Shown here in pieces: positions 14,234 to 26,681 of a stretch of 34,665 nt of DNA; position 1 is the first letter of the stretch, and each line of letters opens with the position of its first letter. The stretch is from Pseudomonadota bacterium. Its GTDB lineage: Bacteria; Desulfobacterota; Syntrophorhabdia; Syntrophorhabdales; Syntrophorhabdaceae. The notes below the pieces were generated by a model. It was not told the DNA's origin and did no database searches. It saw only the letters and a program-made list of their open reading frames with translations. The stretch lies in contig JAPLKA010000034.1 of NCBI GenBank assembly GCA_026388315.1, positions 1 to 34,665 of the forward strand, in the 5' to 3' direction. The translations under genes and the position numbers were made by a program.

Positions 14234-14977
14234 CTATGTCAAGCCTGAATATATTTTTCTCATAGAATCTTCACCTCCTTTCAATATTATCTTATGGGCA
14301 TTATGGACTATCCTGTCGCATATGGCATCTGCAAGGGTAGGTTCTCCTATGATGTCATGCCATGTATCTATCGGGAACTGAGATGCAATGATGGTTGACC
14401 GCACGCCATGCCTGTCCTCCATGATTTCAAGGAAGCTTCTTCTTTCATCATCTGTGAAGGGATTTATCCCCCAGTCGTCGATGATAAGAAGTCTTATCCT
14501 CTGGAGCCTGGACAGGAATTTTACAAAGCTTCCGTCAGCTTTTGCTATTTTCAGGTCCTGAGCCAACCTTGGCAATCTTACATAAGTGGTGCGTATGCCC
14601 TGTCTGACAGCGCTGTTTCCCAGGGCACAGGCAATATAAGTTTTGCCTGATCCGGTAGGCCCGACGATTATGATATTCTGGTTGGAGCGTATCCATTCAT
14701 TTTGAGATAATTTAAGGATTACATCTTTTGATAATCCCCTCCTGGTTCTGAAGTCTATATCCTCAAAACAGGCATTGTGATGCCTTAAGTGGGCATAGGA
14801 AAGAAGGATTTTAAGCTGACGATTTCCTCTTGATAGTTTTTCTTTATCAACAAGAATACCCAGGCGCTCCTCAAAACTTAAGTCTTTGTATGCGTTGTTA
14901 TTCAATTGTTCCTGCAGTCCTTCCGCCATGCCTGATAACTTCATTGCAATGAGTTTTTCGATGGTCGCCTCAATCAT
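14234..14977 (-). CDS. istB: IS21 helper ATPase IstB
   Basis: 247 residues from ATG at 14975-14977, preceded by GGGAGG on the minus strand. It is a AAA+ ATPase with Walker A GPTGSGKTYIA, Walker B LLIIDDWGINPF and the N-terminal IstB helical segment (KLSGMAEGLQEQL). IstB clamps target DNA and delivers it to IstA. The start overlaps the istA stop by 8 bases, the usual translational coupling of this IS family. Length and motifs are complete. A longer start at 15001 is possible but has a weaker ribosome site. Confidence 0.93.
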   Translation of the reverse strand: MIEATIEKLIAMKLSGMAEGLQEQLNNNAYKDLSFEERLGILVDKEKLSRGNRQLKILLSYAHLRHHNACFEDIDFRTRRGLSKDVILKLSQNEWIRSNQNIIIVGPTGSGKTYIACALGNSAVRQGIRTTYVRLPRLAQDLKIAKADGSFVKFLSRLQRIRLLIIDDWGINPFTDDERRSFLEIMEDRHGVRSTIIASQFPIDTWHDIIGEPTLADAICDRIVHNAHKIILKGGEDSMRKIYSGLT

Positions 14978-16496
14978 GGGTTGCCTCCCGGTAGTACTCA
15001 TTGCCTCTTATGTTGTTATGAAGGGGGACAATCTTTTTGTTTTCAACATCTGTTGCTGAACCCTCCAACCCCATCTGAAGGAGGGACTTTACACTTTTGT
15101 AATTATACGCCTCTATTTCCAGCGCCCTTTTACATGCATTTTCTACCCGTTCTGGAGAATATGCCTTTGATAGTCTTATAATACCGAGACAGCTTCGAAA
15201 ACCTTGTTCAGGATGGGTTCTGTGTTCCATGATTTCTTCAAGGAGGGTTTTTGTGTTTGGCCCTATCTTCTGTCCCCACAGTTTTATCCTTGCAGGGGTC
15301 CATTCGAGGTATTGTCTGTGTTCCGCCGGCATATGAAGGTTCTCTGTAACAAATGCCCCCGGTTTATTCATTTTTATATGAGAAGCAACCCTTTTTCCTT
15401 TATGGTATATTTCTACAATGTTGCCGGTATGCATAATATCCAGAGTTTCTCCTATTAAGGTATAGGGAACACTGTAATATGTTTTTTCTACCTTTACATG
15501 ATAATCAATGTGTACTTTCGCCTTTGTCCATGAGGCAATAGCAAACCGCTCCGATGGAAGAGATTTTAAAGCAGGTTTCTCGATTTCAATAAAAAGATCG
15601 TAACGGGATTTGTTTATTACTGCCATCGGTCTTCTATTCAGTTTTTCGGTTTCTTCCAGTATGGCTTCATTCAGTTCTATAAGACTGAAAAAGGTTCTGT
15701 TTCGGAGTGCTGCAAGGATTCTTCTTTGTGCCTGAAGCACTGCATTTTCTACCTTGGCCTTGTCTTTTGGTTTTGCCACTCTTGTGGGGATGACAGCGAT
15801 ATTATAATGCTGCGCCATAGCAGCAAGGGTTTTGTTGATCTCCGGATCATAGAAGCATGCATGGGTAATACCGGCCTTAAGATTATCCGGGATCAGACAT
15901 TCGGAACATCCTCCATAAAACTCAAATGCTTTTATATTACATTTTATAAAGCTCTCGGTAGTCTGACCGGGTACGGCATGTGCAAATATATATGAGCTTG
16001 CCCCTAATACGGAGACAAATAGTTCAACCTCGATCATTTCTCCTGTTGTCGGATTCCGATAGTGAGGTTTATCCCCGGAGAAGTCGACGAACATCTTTTC
16101 TCCTGCCTTATGGGTGATGTGCATAACAGGGTCCGCCTTTTTCTTCCAGTCATGATACAGTTGGTAAAACTGGCTTTTTTCATACCCGTCGGGATTATCC
16201 CTTTTGTATTCCTCGTGAAGCAATTGAAGGGTTACACCTTTCTTCTTAAGTTCTCCAGCGATATACACAAAATCAGGCAGTACTTTTATTGATGTCTTTT
16301 CGGCCTTAGGCGATACGAGATCTGACAGGATGTCTTCGTCTATCTCGCAGATTTCTTTATAAGTAGCGCCGAGCTCCCTGAACTTCTCCACATAGGTTGA
16401 AGCTGTTGAAGTGGATATATTGCATGCCCTGGCGATGGGACGAATACCAAGATTGCATTCAAAAAGCAGCCGGGCAATTTCTTTCAGTTTTTTCAT
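14970..16496 (-). CDS. istA: IS21 transposase IstA
   Basis: 508 residues from ATG 16496, with GGGAGG about 8 bases before it; GTG 16523 with GGAGGG is an alternative adding 9 residues. An N-terminal helix-turn-helix (LGIRPIARACNISTSTASTY) is followed by a DDE catalytic core with Asp in KMFVDFSGDKPHY, Asp in CLIPDNLKAG and Glu in DKAKVENAVLQAQRRIL, then the beta-barrel region (DYHVKVEKTYYSVPYTL) and a C-terminal tail. It cuts and joins the element ends. The frame is intact. Confidence 0.93.
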   Translation of the reverse strand: MKKLKEIARLLFECNLGIRPIARACNISTSTASTYVEKFRELGATYKEICEIDEDILSDLVSPKAEKTSIKVLPDFVYIAGELKKKGVTLQLLHEEYKRDNPDGYEKSQFYQLYHDWKKKADPVMHITHKAGEKMFVDFSGDKPHYRNPTTGEMIEVELFVSVLGASSYIFAHAVPGQTTESFIKCNIKAFEFYGGCSECLIPDNLKAGITHACFYDPEINKTLAAMAQHYNIAVIPTRVAKPKDKAKVENAVLQAQRRILAALRNRTFFSLIELNEAILEETEKLNRRPMAVINKSRYDLFIEIEKPALKSLPSERFAIASWTKAKVHIDYHVKVEKTYYSVPYTLIGETLDIMHTGNIVEIYHKGKRVASHIKMNKPGAFVTENLHMPAEHRQYLEWTPARIKLWGQKIGPNTKTLLEEIMEHRTHPEQGFRSCLGIIRLSKAYSPERVENACKRALEIEAYNYKSVKSLLQMGLEGSATDVENKKIVPLHNNIRGNEYYREATHD

Positions 16497-16627
16497 TGAT
16501 GTCTTCCTCCCTTTCTTTTTCACTTATACACCCTCCGGTATTTTTTGAGGGCAGTGTATCATGTCAGGCAGGGAGAAGAATCATGATCTGTTTTACATAA
16601 ACAGATATTCCGGTAAAACACAAAAAG

Positions 16628-16721: not shown

Positions 16722-16757
16722 TTTTAGTCTTAAAAGACTGTGCAGTCAGGTAAAAAC

Positions 16758-16788
16758 TCCCCCACTTTCTATCTCGGAAAGTGGGGGA
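16758..16788. terminator. perfect 12-bp hairpin beside the IS21 element
   Basis: TCCCCCACTTTC (16758-16769) and GAAAGTGGGGGA (16777-16788) pair perfectly around a 7-base loop. On the minus strand the hairpin is followed by a T-rich AGTTTTTA, so it would act as a terminator for leftward transcription; rightwards no T run follows. Confidence 0.5.
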
Positions 16789-17113
16789 TCTATATCAAAA
16801 CCTGCCTCTGCTTACGCATCGACATGATCAACGTCTATTTTGCGCCGATATTTCCATTGGATTTTAAAATATCCTGCCTCTCCTCCCATTATTTCTATCG
16901 AAGGCGGGAGCACCTCCATATATATACATGAGGGACAGGATGATGAAGCAACTGTGGCTGACAATAATCTCCCACATGAAGCAACGGCAACTGATGCAGA
17001 AGGGCAGCTCACAAAAATGAATCCAATGGCCATTTGGATTTTACCGTCATATTATAGTTATAGTAATTTTCATGTGTAATTATCTATAAAGGGATATAAC
17101 TTTTTTGGAGATT
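16789..17113. other. intergenic stretch, no gene supported
   Basis: The open frames on both strands between 16812 and 17079 have no ribosome binding site and no recognisable sequence. The plus-strand frame has an odd acidic stretch (HEGQDDEATVADNN) and could be a decayed gene remnant beside the IS element. Confidence 0.35.
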
Positions 17114-17192
17114 TATCGGCAAGAAACTGAAATAGAACTGTCATTTTCAGAAACGTATCCATCCAGATACTGCCGATGCAACACAAAGTAAT
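17114..17192 (+). repeat. 79-bp dispersed repeat, copy 1 (palindromic ends)
   Basis: Starts TATCGGCAAGAAACTGAAAT and ends ACACAAAGTAAT. It matches 19594-19672 at 74 of 79 bases in the same orientation. ATCGGCA (17115-17121) pairs with TGCCGAT (17171-17177), and inside it CTGAAA pairs with TTTCAG (17127-17132 / 17145-17150). It lies 76 bases before the TPR gene. Confidence 0.9.
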
Positions 17193-17268
17193 CTTTTGAA
17201 AATGGCGGTTTTGAAATGAATTTTATCACCGGGAATGTTATTCTTCAAAACTTTTACAGAAGATTGCA

Positions 17269-17997
17269 ATGAAAAGACAGATTAAATCCAATACGCCCAG
17301 TTTCAAAGATATTCCCTTCTCCAGGTTGGTAAAAGAGGTAGAAGAACTCTCTGACATTCGTCGTGAATATGCGAAGAAGTCAAAGAAACAGAGAGAAAAG
17401 GCGGCAGAGTATCAATATAACGACGCTTATGGCAGCATGCTCTTAAATAGACTCATCGGAGAAGAATCGCGCGACTTTAGATGGACAGGTGAAATGGTTG
17501 CCCTGGCTATCGATCCGGATTACGCCTCTGCAATCTTAACGGTAGGGTCACACGAATATCTCTATGGAAGAATAGACGAGGCCATGACTCATTTTTTAAA
17601 GCTGACCACGCTTCCGAAAAACACAGAAGATTTAACTGAAATTGTCGATAAGGCAGGTGATTTTCTGATTCAGAAGAAAGATTTTGATAATGCAATTGTT
17701 CTATATGCGTCTGCTGCGAAGAAAAATCCTGGCAATCCTGTGTACCATAATGGCTTGAGTTATTGTTATGGTAAGATAGGGGATTACATAAAAGCCTTAG
17801 AAGAAGTGAGAATAACCGTTAACCTCGATCCTGAGAACCACGTTTACTTAACGGATCTGGGGTGGACCCTCGTTGAGGCGCACCTGTATGATGAAGCGCA
17901 ATCTGTTCTTGAACATGCAGTCAAAGTGGCTCCGCCTGAATACGACCTCGCAAAGAATAATCTTGAAGAATTGCAGCGTCGAAGAAAAAGAAAGTAA
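17269..17997 (+). CDS. TPR-repeat protein
   Basis: 242 residues, no signal peptide. A charged helical N-terminus (about 1-75, SRLVKEVEELSDIRREYAKK) is followed by about four tetratricopeptide repeats: YASAILTVGSHEYLYGRIDE, VDKAGDFLIQKKDFDNAIVL, VYHNGLSYCYGKIGDYIKAL and VYLTDLGWTLVEAHLYDEAQ. TPRs build a superhelix for protein-protein contacts. It is the first of four plus-strand genes (TPR, flavodoxin, Nudix, LprI-like) bounded on both sides by the 79-base repeat. The ribosome site (AGAAG) is modest. Confidence 0.8.
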   Translation: MKRQIKSNTPSFKDIPFSRLVKEVEELSDIRREYAKKSKKQREKAAEYQYNDAYGSMLLNRLIGEESRDFRWTGEMVALAIDPDYASAILTVGSHEYLYGRIDEAMTHFLKLTTLPKNTEDLTEIVDKAGDFLIQKKDFDNAIVLYASAAKKNPGNPVYHNGLSYCYGKIGDYIKALEEVRITVNLDPENHVYLTDLGWTLVEAHLYDEAQSVLEHAVKVAPPEYDLAKNNLEELQRRRKRK

Positions 17998-18068
17998 TAA
18001 ATATGCCCATCTGTAAACAGTGTGGTAAAGACACTGAAGAACCAAAAACAACAAAAGGAGATCGCAAT

Positions 18069-18644
18069 ATGAAAGTAATTGCAATTAATGGAAGTCCACG
18101 CAAGGGCGGGAACACTGAATTTTTACTGAAAAAAGTGCTTGAGCCTATTAGTGAAGCAGGAATAACAACAGAACTGGTCCAGATCGGCGGCAAGCAGGTG
18201 CACGGCTGCACGGCCTGTTATAAGTGCATGGAAAACAAGGATTCAAGATGTGCAATTAAGACGGATATAGTGAATGAATACATAGGTAAAATGATTGAAT
18301 CGGATGCGATTATTTTAGGTTCACCAACATACTTTGCAGGTATGACATCAGAATTGAAAGCGTTAATAGACCGTGCAGGATTTGTTGCCGTTGCTAACGG
18401 CCGCCTTTTCTCTCGTAAAATTGGTGCTGCAGTGGTTGTGAACAGGAGGGGAGGGGCAACGAGCGTCATGGATTCAATCAATCACATGTTTTTAATGTCC
18501 AGAATGATTGTGCCTGGATCAACATACTGGAATTTTGGTGTTGGACGGGAAAAGGGAGATGTCGAGAAAGACGTAGAAGCGCTTGAAAATATGAAAGACC
18601 TGGGAGAAACTATTGCATGGCTGATCAAAAGCTTAAAGGTATAA
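18069..18644 (+). CDS. NADPH-dependent FMN reductase / flavodoxin-like iron-sulfur flavoprotein
   Basis: 191 residues from ATG 18069, with AAGGAG at 18055-18060. MKVIAINGSPRKGGNTEFLL is the FMN phosphate-binding start of the NADPH-dependent FMN reductase fold. The cysteine cluster GCTACYKCMENKDSRC at about residues 45-60 resembles the iron-sulfur or redox site of the 'ISF-like' flavoproteins of anaerobes, and GSPTYFAGMTSELKALIDR is the flavin-binding loop. It transfers electrons between NAD(P)H, flavin and an unknown acceptor. An in-frame start at 18003 would add a zinc-ribbon-like MPICKQCGKDTEEPK leader, but it lacks a ribosome site. Confidence 0.85.
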   Translation: MKVIAINGSPRKGGNTEFLLKKVLEPISEAGITTELVQIGGKQVHGCTACYKCMENKDSRCAIKTDIVNEYIGKMIESDAIILGSPTYFAGMTSELKALIDRAGFVAVANGRLFSRKIGAAVVVNRRGGATSVMDSINHMFLMSRMIVPGSTYWNFGVGREKGDVEKDVEALENMKDLGETIAWLIKSLKV

Positions 18645-18711
18645 ACACCCATTAGAATGACACAATTCTGTTTTGCTTCGTTTTTCTTTTAAAAGGATAT
18701 TCCTTCTGAGT

Positions 18712-19116
18712 ATGAACAACAATAAACCACAATGCGGACTCATATTAGAGAATAGGGAAGGGAAGGTCCTGCTTCAATTACGGGATAACAGACCTGATAT
18801 CTTATTCCCGAACGTCTGGGGAACATTTGGCGGAGAGATTGAAGATGGAGAAACCCCTGAAATGGCAATCATGCGCGAAATCAGAGAAGAAACAAGATAT
18901 GAGCTTCACGATCCTGAATACTTTGATACCTTCCTCTATGACAGCCGCGTCATTCATATCTACAGAAAAGTTGACCATACAATTGCCTTAGAGGATCTGA
19001 CTATTCATGAAGGCCAGAAGGGCATGTTCTTTTCAAAAGAAGAAGTTGAAAACCTTGACTGTGCTGCCCATTGCAAAGAAATCGTCATTGCATATTTTCA
19101 GAAGTTTCATCAATAA
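18712..19116 (+). CDS. Nudix hydrolase
   Basis: 134 residues from ATG 18712; a TTG at 18673 extends the frame but is weaker. The Nudix box GGEIEDGETPEMAIMREIRE-ET reads G-x5-E-x7-R-E-U-x-E-E as required for metal binding, but the usual Gly after EEx is Arg (EETRYEL). It is preceded by a typical strand (CGLILENREGKVLLQLRDN) and the GTFGGE turn. Nudix enzymes cleave nucleoside diphosphates linked to another group; the substrate is open. It is part of the TPR-flavodoxin-Nudix-LprI block. Confidence 0.85.
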   Translation: MNNNKPQCGLILENREGKVLLQLRDNRPDILFPNVWGTFGGEIEDGETPEMAIMREIREETRYELHDPEYFDTFLYDSRVIHIYRKVDHTIALEDLTIHEGQKGMFFSKEEVENLDCAAHCKEIVIAYFQKFHQ

Positions 19117-19137
19117 AGCCTATCCGAGGAGGTAAGG

Positions 19138-19530
19138 ATGAACAAGGTTATTTTTTTAGGTACACTGCTATGCGTTCTTTGTTGTGCATTCACTCTATCG
19201 GCACAAGATTGCAGTAAGGCCGATAACACCCTTGCAATTATTGCATGTCACGAAGAACGCTATGAAAAAGCGGACAAAGAATTGAACAAAGTCTATGGAG
19301 AAGCCATGAAATCTCTTTTCCCTTCTGCACAACAGAAGCTGAAGGAAGCTCAAAAGGCATGGCTGAAATACCGGGATACAGGTCTTGTTTTTGCAATAGA
19401 ACTCAACAAGGATTTAAGATCGTATGGAAACATCGTTGTGGCCGATTACAAAGCTACAGTTGTGGAAAAGAGAGTATTGGAGCTGAAATATCTCACGACA
19501 GGGCCAGAGGGACCGCCAATTAAATGGTGA
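19138..19530 (+). CDS. LprI/DUF1311-family exported protein
   Basis: 130 residues. ATG follows GAGGAGG with 6 bases. A signal peptide (FLGTLLCVLCCAFTLSAQ) is followed by DCSKADNTLAIIACHEERYE and KADKELNKVYGEAMKSL, then QQKLKEAQKAWLKYRD, the paired-Cys helical pattern of the lysozyme-inhibitor LprI family (DUF1311). Two Cys (in DCSK and ACHE) should form a disulfide in the periplasm. Members are linked to lysozyme resistance in some bacteria, but most are uncharacterised. It starts 22 bases after the Nudix stop. Confidence 0.8.
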   Translation: MNKVIFLGTLLCVLCCAFTLSAQDCSKADNTLAIIACHEERYEKADKELNKVYGEAMKSLFPSAQQKLKEAQKAWLKYRDTGLVFAIELNKDLRSYGNIVVADYKATVVEKRVLELKYLTTGPEGPPIKW

Positions 19531-19593
19531 TATGGAGAAATGTACCATTTTTGGTATGAGACTTGTATCATGTGGATATAATGTATCAAGATA

Positions 19594-19672
19594 TATCGGC
19601 AAGAAACTGAAATAGAACTGTCATCCTCAGAAACTTATCCATCCAGATACTGCCGCTGCAACACAAAATAAT
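19594..19672 (+). repeat. 79-bp dispersed repeat, copy 2 (with extended left flank from about 19536)
   Basis: Same sequence as 17114-17192 with 5 substitutions in 79 bases, in the same orientation. Its left flank (about 19536-19593) is also similar to 20350-20405. It begins just after the LprI-like gene. Confidence 0.9.
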
Positions 19673-19803: not shown

Positions 19804-19832
19804 TTGACATTATTGATGATTATATTAATAAT
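19804..19832 (+). promoter_or_regulatory. candidate promoter for the HU gene
   Basis: TTGACA (19804-19809) with an AT-rich TAATAAT at 19826-19832, spacer 16. It lies about 100 bases upstream of the HU start codon. Confidence 0.5.
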
Positions 19833-19933: not shown

Positions 19934-20263
19934 ATGACAAAGGCAGAAATTGTAGCAAAAGTGGCAGAAGATGTTAAAGTTACAAAAAAAGTTGCAGAAG
20001 GTGCATTCCAGACAATCATCGGATGTATTGAGGGATCGCTCAAGAAAGGTGAGAAAACAACAATCGTAGGTTTTGGCACATTCTCAGTTGCTGATAGGAA
20101 GGCAAGAAAGGGCAGAAACCCACAGACCGGTAAAGAGATCAAGATTGCCGCAAAGAAGGTGCCGAAGTTTACCGCAGGGGCAGCTTTAAAGGCAGTGGTA
20201 AGCGGAAAGGCAGCAGCAAAGAAAGCAGTAAAGAAGGCACCGGCCAAACCGAAAAAGAAATAA
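19934..20263 (+). CDS. HU-family DNA-binding protein with histone-H1-like lysine/alanine tail
   Basis: 109 residues from ATG 19934; AAGGAGG at 19918-19924 also allows TTG 19928. HU core: MTKAEIVAKVAEDVKVTKK, VGFGTFSVADRKARKGRNP with the proline DNA-intercalating loop (RNPQTGKEI). From about residue 85 a low-complexity tail of Ala, Lys and Pro (AAAKKAVKKAPAKPKKK) resembles histone H1 and the tails of some actinobacterial and deltaproteobacterial HU proteins. It compacts and bends DNA. A strong terminator follows directly, so it is monocistronic. Confidence 0.92.
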   Translation: MTKAEIVAKVAEDVKVTKKVAEGAFQTIIGCIEGSLKKGEKTTIVGFGTFSVADRKARKGRNPQTGKEIKIAAKKVPKFTAGAALKAVVSGKAAAKKAVKKAPAKPKKK

Positions 20264-20349: not shown

Positions 20350-20424
20350 GAAAATGTGCCATTTGTGGTAGAGAATTGTATCCTGTGGATGTATGATAAT
20401 AAGATAAATCGGCAAGAACTGGAA
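20350..20424 (+). repeat. diverged third copy of the dispersed repeat (left part)
   Basis: Shares ATGTGCCATTTGTGGTA...TTGTATC(C)TGTGGAT...ATCGGCAAGAA with the extended left flank and start of the copy at 19536-19672, but lacks the right half. It ends 20 bases before the DUF333 gene start. Confidence 0.7.
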
Positions 20425-20443
20425 TGCGTAAGGGGGGTTTGCT

Positions 20444-21331
20444 ATGTTTCATACAATATGTCGAGTTTTTAAATTGATGTTTGTTTTTTGTCTTGCCACA
20501 ACAACGGTTAGTTATGCTTCCGCCACAACACAGCAGCCTGTGACACAGATCGCTAATCCAGCTTCCGAAAACTGTATCAAAAAGGGCGGTACGGTGGTAA
20601 TTCAGAAACACAACGATGGCGGCGAATATGGCATGTGCCTATTCCAAGATAATAGACAATGCGAGGAGTGGGCCATGTTCCGCGGAGAATGTCCGGTTGG
20701 AGGTATCAAAATCACCGGCTATATCACTCCGGCAGCTCAATACTGCGCTATCACAGGAGGGAAATATCAGGTTTCAGGTAACAGCAACACAGACCAGGAA
20801 CAGGGAACCTGCACATTCAAGAACGGTAAAACCTGTGATTCGCGGAATTATTATGCTGGAAAATGCAATCCCAATATCGAGGAGGGACAACCAACATATA
20901 GCGACCCCTTTGCATATTGTACAGCTGTAGCGACCGTTGATATACCGGATAGTCGATACAATGGGGTTAAGATCCCGAATTCCATTATTCAAGGCATGAT
21001 CCAGCAAGGGATTGTACCGGCTGATGCGCCGATGGAGTTTCAACAGAATATGGCGTGGCGGTGCATGAATCATAAGGTATGGGTTTGCCAATTTGGAGCC
21101 AATATCCCATGCATGGAAAAGGCCGACATATCACGGACGCCGACCTCCGGGATGGTGGACTATTGCAAGACGAGTTCCACAACGGATAGCATCCCTGCCT
21201 ATGTGACAGGACGAGCAACAATATACGAATGGAGATGCAAGGATGGAAAACCGGAAGTGGTCAGGCAACTCTTCAAGAGCGATCAGCAAGGATACCCGAC
21301 TGTCTATTGGTATGAACTAACGCCAAGGTGA
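20444..21331 (+). CDS. exported DUF333-domain protein with two Cys-rich modules
   Basis: 295 residues, ATG after AAGGGGGG. The signal peptide (MFVFCLATTTVSYA) is preceded by a short basic N-terminus. Two DUF333 ('putative hemolysin') modules follow: NPASENCIKKGGTVVIQKH...YGMCLFQDNRQCEEWAMFRG at about 33-80, and TPAAQYCAITGGKYQV...GTCTFKNGKTCDSRNYYAG at about 84-132. A third Cys-rich region (FAYCTAVATVDIPDSRYNG to YEWRCKDGKPEVV) has no family I recognise. DUF333 proteins are exported and their real function is unknown. Confidence 0.75.
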   Translation: MFHTICRVFKLMFVFCLATTTVSYASATTQQPVTQIANPASENCIKKGGTVVIQKHNDGGEYGMCLFQDNRQCEEWAMFRGECPVGGIKITGYITPAAQYCAITGGKYQVSGNSNTDQEQGTCTFKNGKTCDSRNYYAGKCNPNIEEGQPTYSDPFAYCTAVATVDIPDSRYNGVKIPNSIIQGMIQQGIVPADAPMEFQQNMAWRCMNHKVWVCQFGANIPCMEKADISRTPTSGMVDYCKTSSTTDSIPAYVTGRATIYEWRCKDGKPEVVRQLFKSDQQGYPTVYWYELTPR

Positions 21332-21359
21332 GTTTTTATGTAAAGGGGTTGGTATAAAT

Positions 21360-21641
21360 CTATTCCCGGTAGAATCTATCGGCAGGAAGGGATCTCAAAT
21401 AATTGGTTTCCATCTCGTCAAGGGTTTGTGCTAAGGTTCTGCTTAGAATAGCTGTTTTCTCAAAAAATATATTTATTTCTGCAAAAAGTCTTACACAGCT
21501 CTCCCTGGCCTGCCGGGAAAGCTGTGTAATCTGCTCTTCCCGATCTTTTGTTTCCTGTATAATATCTTTGAAGAGTTCCAGTTCTTCCCGGGTCAGTTTC
21601 TTTGCTTTAAGGAAATCATCTATCGCCTTTTTGTTGTCCAC
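21360..21641 (-). CDS. small coiled-coil protein, unknown
   Basis: 93 residues from GTG at 21641 (M-D-N-K-K). It is almost entirely charged helix with heptad spacing (FLKAKKLTREELELFKDII, then REEQITQLSRQARESCVRLF), no signal peptide. The ribosome site is weak. A coding frame is suggested by the amphipathic pattern and by convergent placement between two genes, but I recognise no family. Confidence 0.45.
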   Translation of the reverse strand: MDNKKAIDDFLKAKKLTREELELFKDIIQETKDREEQITQLSRQARESCVRLFAEINIFFEKTAILSRTLAQTLDEMETNYLRSLPADRFYRE

Positions 21642-21788: not shown

Positions 21789-21838
21789 GATATACCGTCA
21801 AGAAAGCCTATATAAGATTTTTTGCCGGTATCAGTCTA
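21789..21838 (+). repeat. short palindromic repeat (TTGCCGGTAT family), copy A
   Basis: GATATACCGTCAAGAAAGCC...TTTTTTGCCGGTATCAGTCTA aligns along its length with 25734-25780. The ends are imperfect inverted repeats of each other. Confidence 0.75.
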
Positions 21839-21939
21839 TCTCAGGGAAGACATTTTGATGATTTCCAGATTCTATAACAATAGCAACGTTGAGATACTTT
21901 CTGCATTTAATAAGATCATCAGAAGCTGATTATTCCCGT

Positions 21940-25716: not shown

Positions 25717-25733
25717 GTAACAAAGATTTTTCT

Positions 25734-25780
25734 GATATCGGCAAAAGGTCTCTATATGAATTCTTGCCGGTATAAGTCTA
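25734..25780 (+). repeat. short palindromic repeat (TTGCCGGTAT family), copy B
   Basis: GATATCGGCAA at the left pairs with TTGCCGGTAT at the right (one G-T mismatch in the ten-base arms, ATATCGGCAA / TTGCCGGTAT) around about 19 bases. It aligns with copy A at 21789-21838 and has half-copies near 13197, 26514 and 30217. Confidence 0.75.
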
Positions 25781-25885
25781 CAGTAGAAAAGACACTATGT
25801 GTTTTATCAACCCTTTACTTCTGTCTTAATTATTATGTGGAGATGAGAAGTCAATGAATATTTCTTAAGAAGGAGGACTATATAC

Positions 25886-26068: not shown

Positions 26069-26681
26069 ATCCTTTTGTGATGAGAATACCCGAGAAAGCT
26101 TCCAGTTCATGCGATTCTAATGATATTTTTCCATTTCCATTTCATTAAGACCCTTTCAAGCACTTCTCGTTCAGAAGGACCTGCTATAATCTATAGGAAT
26201 AAGGGTTGTAGGGGAATATTATTAAACGGTTGCGATTCAGAATATACTTATCTGGTAATACAGAAATACCACTGGAGGCGCCCATAGCGGTAGTTCACCC
26301 ATTAACAAATTATGCACAAAATGAAATTATATACAGGGTGGGGCAATGATCGCCTGTCCGAGTACCGGTGCAGAGATTATTTTACCGGGGCGTCAGGACA
26401 ATATCCTGTTTTCGGGAGCGCCCAACCTCATTGTGACATTTGTCTCCGCCCTTTATATCAACAACAGGCAGATACAGTGATGTAAATGAGTTGAAATATA
26501 TTCTCTACCCGATATCGGCAAGAGTTGTGAGAGAGTTCAGTTGGAGGAGATGGGAGAACCAGGACTGTTTTTGTGTGAGCGTGTTGACAACTTCCTGAAA
26601 CAAACAACGTACCCTTTTATGGGATGATGCTGTGTTTGAAACGGTAATCGTTGAAGTAGACACAATAAGGGAAGAATTCTC
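26069..26681. other. intergenic stretch with one possible small gene
   Basis: About 610 bases. Apart from the possible 44-residue frame at 26346 and a GATATCGGCAAGA half-repeat near 26514, nothing is recognised. Confidence 0.4.
26346..26480 (+). CDS. possible small hypothetical protein (44 residues)
   Basis: ATG after GGTGGGG, TGA at 26478-26480. The sequence (MIACPSTGAEIILPGRQDNI and then a hydrophobic stretch) resembles no family I know. Only the ribosome-like site supports it. Confidence 0.25.
   Translation: MIACPSTGAEIILPGRQDNILFSGAPNLIVTFVSALYINNRQIQ

Follow-up and report, generated by a model that had tools for sequence, protein, structure and literature searches.

A low-copy intergenic repeat that may have acted as a recombination junction for accessory genes

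Introduction

In integron arrays, direct repeats bound varied gene segments and stand behind genes, and one flank is constant; the locus described here (where that flank is a conserved region termed LE) is alike in these respects. The attC sites of integrons carry the motifs R' (GTTRRRY) and R'' (RYYYAAC). Pairs of small elements can likewise bracket varied gene segments, as a report on TIMEs and TIME-bounded composite elements describes; in TIMEs, the terminal inverted repeats measure 38 bp and the target duplications 5–6 bp (PMC4133298). According to passages of a review, MITEs act as hotspots of homologous recombination, and the DNA between MITEs can be mobilized (PMC10969869). What these two sources, in the passages cited, provide for short elements that flank and mobilize genes is a general precedent (PMC4133298; PMC10969869).

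Here, we analyse a repeat of ~84 bp, two copies of which enclose a block of genes. From sequence comparison, we think it about an even call that this repeat, a rare intergenic sequence restricted to one genus, has acted as a recombination junction. Like the intergenic repeats and MITE hotspots treated in the passages cited, it is short, intergenic, and without an enzyme of its own, and the stretches between copies may be moved or lost (PMC10969869); it differs from MITE hotspots in its very low copy number and in showing no conserved terminal inverted repeats and no convincing target duplication. If right, this reading would single out one short sequence for accessory-gene exchange among uncultured syntrophs related to Syntrophorhabdus, and its filled and empty configurations are open to test.

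Genomes and searches

The window (the whole stretch of DNA that was analysed, 34,665 nucleotides) is the entire contig C34 of genome G000 (3.80 Mb, 131 contigs), hereafter the own genome; positions are those of the window unless a contig is named. A 96-base query was compared with 60 genomes including this one, and a sequence-only model built on nine copies of the repeat was run over 46 genomes of the order with stricter filters, by which weak matches may be lost. Flanks were compared for eight copies (110 bases to the left and 140 to the right, all 28 pairs, z from 100 shuffles each), with the copies on C121, C130 (two), and C149 omitted as partial.

The repeat and its copies

Copy A of the repeat occupies positions 17109–17192 and copy B positions 19589–19672, both on the plus strand. 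The initial annotation had recognized 79 bases of each as direct repeats in a shared orientation (17114–17192 and 19594–19672, 74/79 identical), which our comparison bears out, with mismatches at 17145, 17146, 17155, 17176, and 17188; the likeness runs 5 bases further to the left (to 17109 and 19589), making 78 of 84 positions identical. Searched against the complete own genome, the 79-mer returned the window pair and a 38-base part on C37 (E 2.7e-35, 1.1e-28, and 1.5e-10), and chance is therefore excluded for the window repeats. Inverted ends had also been ascribed to each copy; full pairing occurs in copy A only, where the two words (ATCGGCA, 17115–17121; TGCCGAT, 17171–17177) are internal to the unit and not terminal, and TGCCGCT replaces TGCCGAT in copy B and in all four full copies of the sister species.

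The best match of A or B outside the pair (75/84, copy B with the copy on C181) falls below the 78/84 within it, three sites (17114, 17169, and 17179) are shared by A and B alone, and no site groups A with the first copy on C216 (C216A) against B with the second (C216B). This likeness, which comes from few sites, would fit exchange or copying inside the pair.

The 96-base query matched three of the 60 genomes, namely the own genome in three places, the sister species G002 in five, and G015 in one, weakly. At E ≤ 1e-5, the model found five matches in the own genome (C34 twice, C6, C121, and C37), where the two on C34 are the full pair, and seven in the sister species (C181, C216 twice, C89, C130 twice, and C149); eight weak matches in six other genomes of the order (the best at 3.8e-4) were not counted as copies. 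The best reading of these results is a low-copy repeat restricted to the genus. What was found is thus few copies with flanks in common, and not the many random copies without a tie to block boundaries that the initial annotation had named as evidence against its proposal. No viral contig carries the core pattern of the repeat, and the literature searched, at the level of abstracts and passages, held no description of it.

Near position 2342 of C49 in the own genome, a chance match to the first 11 bases of the repeat lies amid regularly spaced, CRISPR-array-like repeats. Short segments of the window at 21803–21880, 25730–25809, and 26493–26602 recur on C121, C130, C149, and C181, where they lie beside the repeat or zinc-ribbon relics, and several families of short intergenic repeats are seen in the own genome from such recurring window segments.

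Genes of the block and the zinc-ribbon ORF

The block had been described as four genes, and Pfam supports all four; it also contains two relics of a further ORF. On the plus strand follow a TPR protein gene (17269–17997, 242 aa; TPR_19, E 1.4e-11), a flavodoxin/NADPH-dependent FMN reductase gene (18069–18644; FMN_red, E 1.1e-31), a Nudix gene (18712–19116; NUDIX, E 2e-14), and an LprI-like gene (19138–19530; LprI, E 1.8e-17). The last two have paralogues on C121 of the own genome, to which the Nudix–LprI stretch is 77% identical. C121 and its sister-species orthologue C130 have the order acs, repeat remnant, NUDIX, zinc-ribbon remnant, with LprI after NUDIX in C121 but not in C130. The Nudix protein (18718–19116) matches the PADLOC candidate-defence model PDC-S07 (E 1.9e-13), a match that may reflect the Nudix fold alone. 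Behind copy B stands an HU gene (19934–20263, plus strand; Bac_DNA_binding, E 2.3e-29) with a promoter-like site at 19804–19832.

The further ORF, termed the zinc-ribbon ORF ('MPICK'), is split in the block. Its N-terminal relic (MPICKQCGKDTEEPKTT; 18001–18054, plus strand), 83–85% identical to the copies on C37 and C121, is fused in frame with the flavodoxin gene, and for this reason the flavodoxin ORF begins at 18003; relatives suggest 18069 as the native start. Those relatives (84–87% identical), which come from three genomes belonging to two other genera, all align from the equivalent of 18055 on, and LE, the repeat, and the zinc ribbon are absent from all five of the loci compared for them (L125–L129). 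The C-terminal relic (19527–19588, start approximate, plus strand) immediately precedes copy B, and downstream of HU there is a second C-terminal relic together with the repeat's first bases (20352–20425, plus strand; 82% identical to 19538–19613). The junction between LprI and the zinc ribbon in the window coincides with the word ATATGG, which occurs elsewhere behind the LprI stop (C121) and within a whole zinc-ribbon ORF (C216), the pattern that a small deletion between two occurrences of one word would leave.

Because the flavodoxin gene, the Nudix–LprI pair, and the zinc-ribbon pieces have separate relatives, the block is, as judged from these comparisons, a mosaic and not one unit that moved. 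An IS21 element (istA/istB, 14234–16523) was considered as part of the block and rejected, since it sits outside LE.

Whole zinc-ribbon ORFs elsewhere encode 81–88 aa (C37 and C216). The family is found in 15 of the 46 genomes of the order, with cysteines and histidines conserved across 11 aligned members; members of 81 and 79 aa have no Pfam match even at E ≤ 5. A search for the ORF on phages, plasmids, and viral contigs found none. One genome, G012, holds six copies (L056–L061), and in three of them the common sequence is ~60 bases upstream and the ORF alone (80–86% identical), with unrelated flanks. In another genus (G016:C42; L062, 4370–4720), the ORF stands behind a DUF333-type gene, and its tail joins the equivalent of the window's HU terminator region directly, as if HU had been deleted. 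In one further genus (g5; L048 and L043), the zinc ribbon forms the C-terminal part of open frames of 336–369 aa, one of which was scanned; its N-terminal part is resolvase-like (PF00239, E 1.5e-12), with catalytic residues that, by eye, look lost.

Exchanged flanks and a single-repeat form

The left flanks of the copies fall into two families. LE precedes copy A, C216A, and the copies on C181, C6, and C37 (z 8.0–23.4), and the tail of the zinc-ribbon ORF precedes copy B, C216B, and the second copy on C89 (C89B; z 7.6–20.4); between the two families, the top z is 2.9. On the right, the region upstream of HU follows copy B, C216B, C89B, and the copy on C6 (z 10.1–45.4), with remaining pairs at z ≤ 2.1, so that the right sides of copy A, C216A, C181, and C37 are related to none. 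The left flank of A is thus seen at four other copies, and the setting of B, between zinc-ribbon tail and HU, at two sister-species sites. The segments enclosed differ: TPR, flavodoxin, Nudix, and LprI genes in the window, a gene on the opposite strand in C216, and an Fe-S protein gene on C89, where LE and then a decayed first part of the repeat lie on the far side of the cargo gene. Outside the eight copies compared, the first copy on C130 is preceded by a piece of LE, and C149 and the second copy on C130 have another right side in common.

Contig C6 of the own genome carries LE, a single repeat, and then HU, the one-repeat arrangement that the initial annotation had proposed to look for. Since it falls in both the LE and the HU families, it joins an A-type left side to a B-type right side at one repeat. 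Flanks are thus exchanged at the repeat, and three of the four combinations of LE or zinc-ribbon left side with HU or other right side are observed. C6 is 20–28% diverged from the window over LE and HU, its HU is decayed, and its regulator fragment is 86% identical to both species, where the own and the sister sequences are 94% alike; for these reasons C6 may represent an old paralogue or may be foreign to this genome, and on sequence grounds we regard it as a diverged copy and not an allele.

In one search with nine joined flanks, those of the window, C37, C181, and C216 were without a close match in the other of the two species (C216R, 74–75%). The right flank of C89 has a 96% match on C99 of the own genome, which is colinear with C89 at 96.5% until just past the gene adjoining HU, and the last ~390 bases of C99 hold neither HU nor the repeat. 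These searches and the C99 comparison yielded no orthologous pair of filled and empty sites in the two genomes of the genus that could be used.

LE as a candidate small RNA

LE (16748–17108, minus strand), the conserved left flank of copy A, has a terminator-like hairpin at 16788–16758 and contains an invariant TAACTATA, similar to a −10 box on the minus strand. In each of three copies examined, its fold is more stable than those of shuffled sequences (z −3.44, −2.28, and −3.42), and an alignment of five copies gives 23 consensus pairs, three of them with compensated changes. The candidate RNA part spans 16748–17062 (minus strand), with copies on C6 (L121), C37 (L028), and C89 (L025). No Rfam family reached threshold in the window, and relaxed searches with LE as it stands in the window and on C6 gave only sub-threshold matches. 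A protein gene was rejected, the frames being broken differently in seven copies or parts of copies, and LE matches no Pfam family above cut-off. LE may thus be an undescribed small RNA gene, whose minus-strand transcript would be about 290–370 nt long, and this candidate beside the repeats is open to test by itself.

A recombination junction and its alternatives

The arrangements above share a frame in which LE and a repeat are followed by one or more cargo genes, a zinc-ribbon ORF, a second repeat, and HU. Under the junction reading, crossing over between repeats would add or remove a segment of cargo, zinc ribbon, and repeat, and the empty state would consist of LE, repeat, and HU. In the window, two segments (TPR; Nudix–LprI) seem once to have stood in tandem, after which the flavodoxin gene and small deletions would have split the zinc-ribbon copies. 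Crossing over between direct repeats would account for the swapped flanks, for the form with one repeat, and for the resemblance of A to B. It would probably be ordinary homologous (RecA-type) recombination, taken as the default because no recombinase other than IS transposases was noticed, by eye, among the window ORFs. We infer the direction of exchange (gain or loss) and the two-segment history. The earlier proposal that the block had moved by recombination between its repeats therefore holds in part: the single-repeat form on C6 and the two sister loci with the same frame and other cargo favour it, but no single unit moved. Several points weigh against the junction reading, among them the divergence and uncertain origin of C6 and the lack of an orthologous filled and empty pair in the searches above. 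Homologous recombination would have only a short stretch of 79–84 bp to act on, few sites underlie the resemblance of A to B, and the repeats on C37, C181, and C130, which lie on the LE side, are accompanied neither by HU nor by a second full repeat.

A rather unlikely alternative, though one to be taken seriously, is that selection maintains the repeat as a conserved regulatory module and that segmental duplications copied it along with the DNA around it; on one side it would lie upstream of a candidate promoter of LE, and on the other upstream of the promoter of the next gene. The own genome does hold other segmental scraps, the invariant word in LE fits a −10 box, a promoter-like site lies at 17080–17051 on the minus strand (10/12 matches), and TTGACA follows the repeat within a few bases on C181, C89, C121, and C130. 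TTGACA is not present behind A or B, however, and promoter-like sites are no commoner than in shuffles (11 found against a mean of 9.6). A module alone would also leave unexplained why LE and a repeat are followed directly by HU in one place and by other genes, a further repeat, and HU in others, and why A is nearer to B than to C216A.

The initial annotation had offered a second possibility, that the repeats are small non-autonomous elements. MITEs or other non-autonomous transposable elements that came to bracket DNA by independent insertion would suit the scattering of the copies, their sharp edges, and the unrelated sequences beside them, but we consider this explanation improbable. There are no conserved terminal inverted repeats, since terminal complementarity reaches at best 8–10 of 14 in seven copies, at varying positions, and the inverted arms are complete in copy A only; nor is there a convincing target-site duplication, the longest shared words at the window copies being of 4–6 bases, although duplications can decay. 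The 38-bp terminal inverted repeats and 5–6-bp target duplications given for TIMEs in the passages cited were not found here (PMC4133298). Independent insertion of the repeat alone cannot, moreover, account for LE, which accompanies five of the copies compared.

Slightly less probable again is a dedicated site-specific cassette system with integron-like logic, in which a cassette would consist of a gene, the zinc-ribbon ORF, and the repeat, moved by an unknown recombinase. Direct repeats do bound the segments, and different genes are each trailed by the zinc-ribbon ORF within 5–16 bases of their stop (5 for TPR in the window, 11 for the Fe-S protein on C89, and 16 for LprI on C121), as is the DUF333 gene in another genus. 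On the other hand, repeat copies are very few, G012 has zinc-ribbon copies without the repeat, and no recombinase beyond the IS transposases was noticed by eye in the window. The attC-type R'/R'' motif has no match on either strand of seven copies with 10-base margins, and no integron integrase gene was noticed, by eye, among window ORFs of at least 110 aa. The segments differ from integron arrays in the first of these respects, apparently in the second, and in holding a constant zinc-ribbon ORF with up to several genes. It is equally doubtful that we are dealing with a gene-capture system unrelated to integrons, in which cargo, zinc-ribbon ORF, and 84-bp repeat would dock at LE and its repeat before HU. 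The zinc-ribbon protein would then possibly be part of the machinery, since related proteins of a neighbouring genus carry a resolvase-like domain. That fusion also speaks for the cassette system, although by eye the domain seems to have lost its catalytic function. Were the cassette reading true, genes would be captured without an integron integrase.

That the repeat encodes a structured RNA (a three-way junction) can practically be dismissed, because the good fold of copy A (z −2.84 against shuffles) is not conserved in copy B (z +0.37), the alignment of nine copies has a consensus energy of −0.07 kcal/mol with no compensated pairs, and the repeat has no Rfam family. A coding role was likewise set aside: a plus-strand frame with 8/22 variable third positions, against 4/22 and 4/22 at the others, is suggestive but has too few sites, and the same counts do not fit a minus-strand, signal-peptide-like frame seen by eye.

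Beyond HU, a gene of ~93 aa (21324–21594) has three copies at ~90% identity in the own genome, the others lying at the ends of C6 and C9; on C9, it stands directly behind F-type-conjugation-like genes (named by eye).
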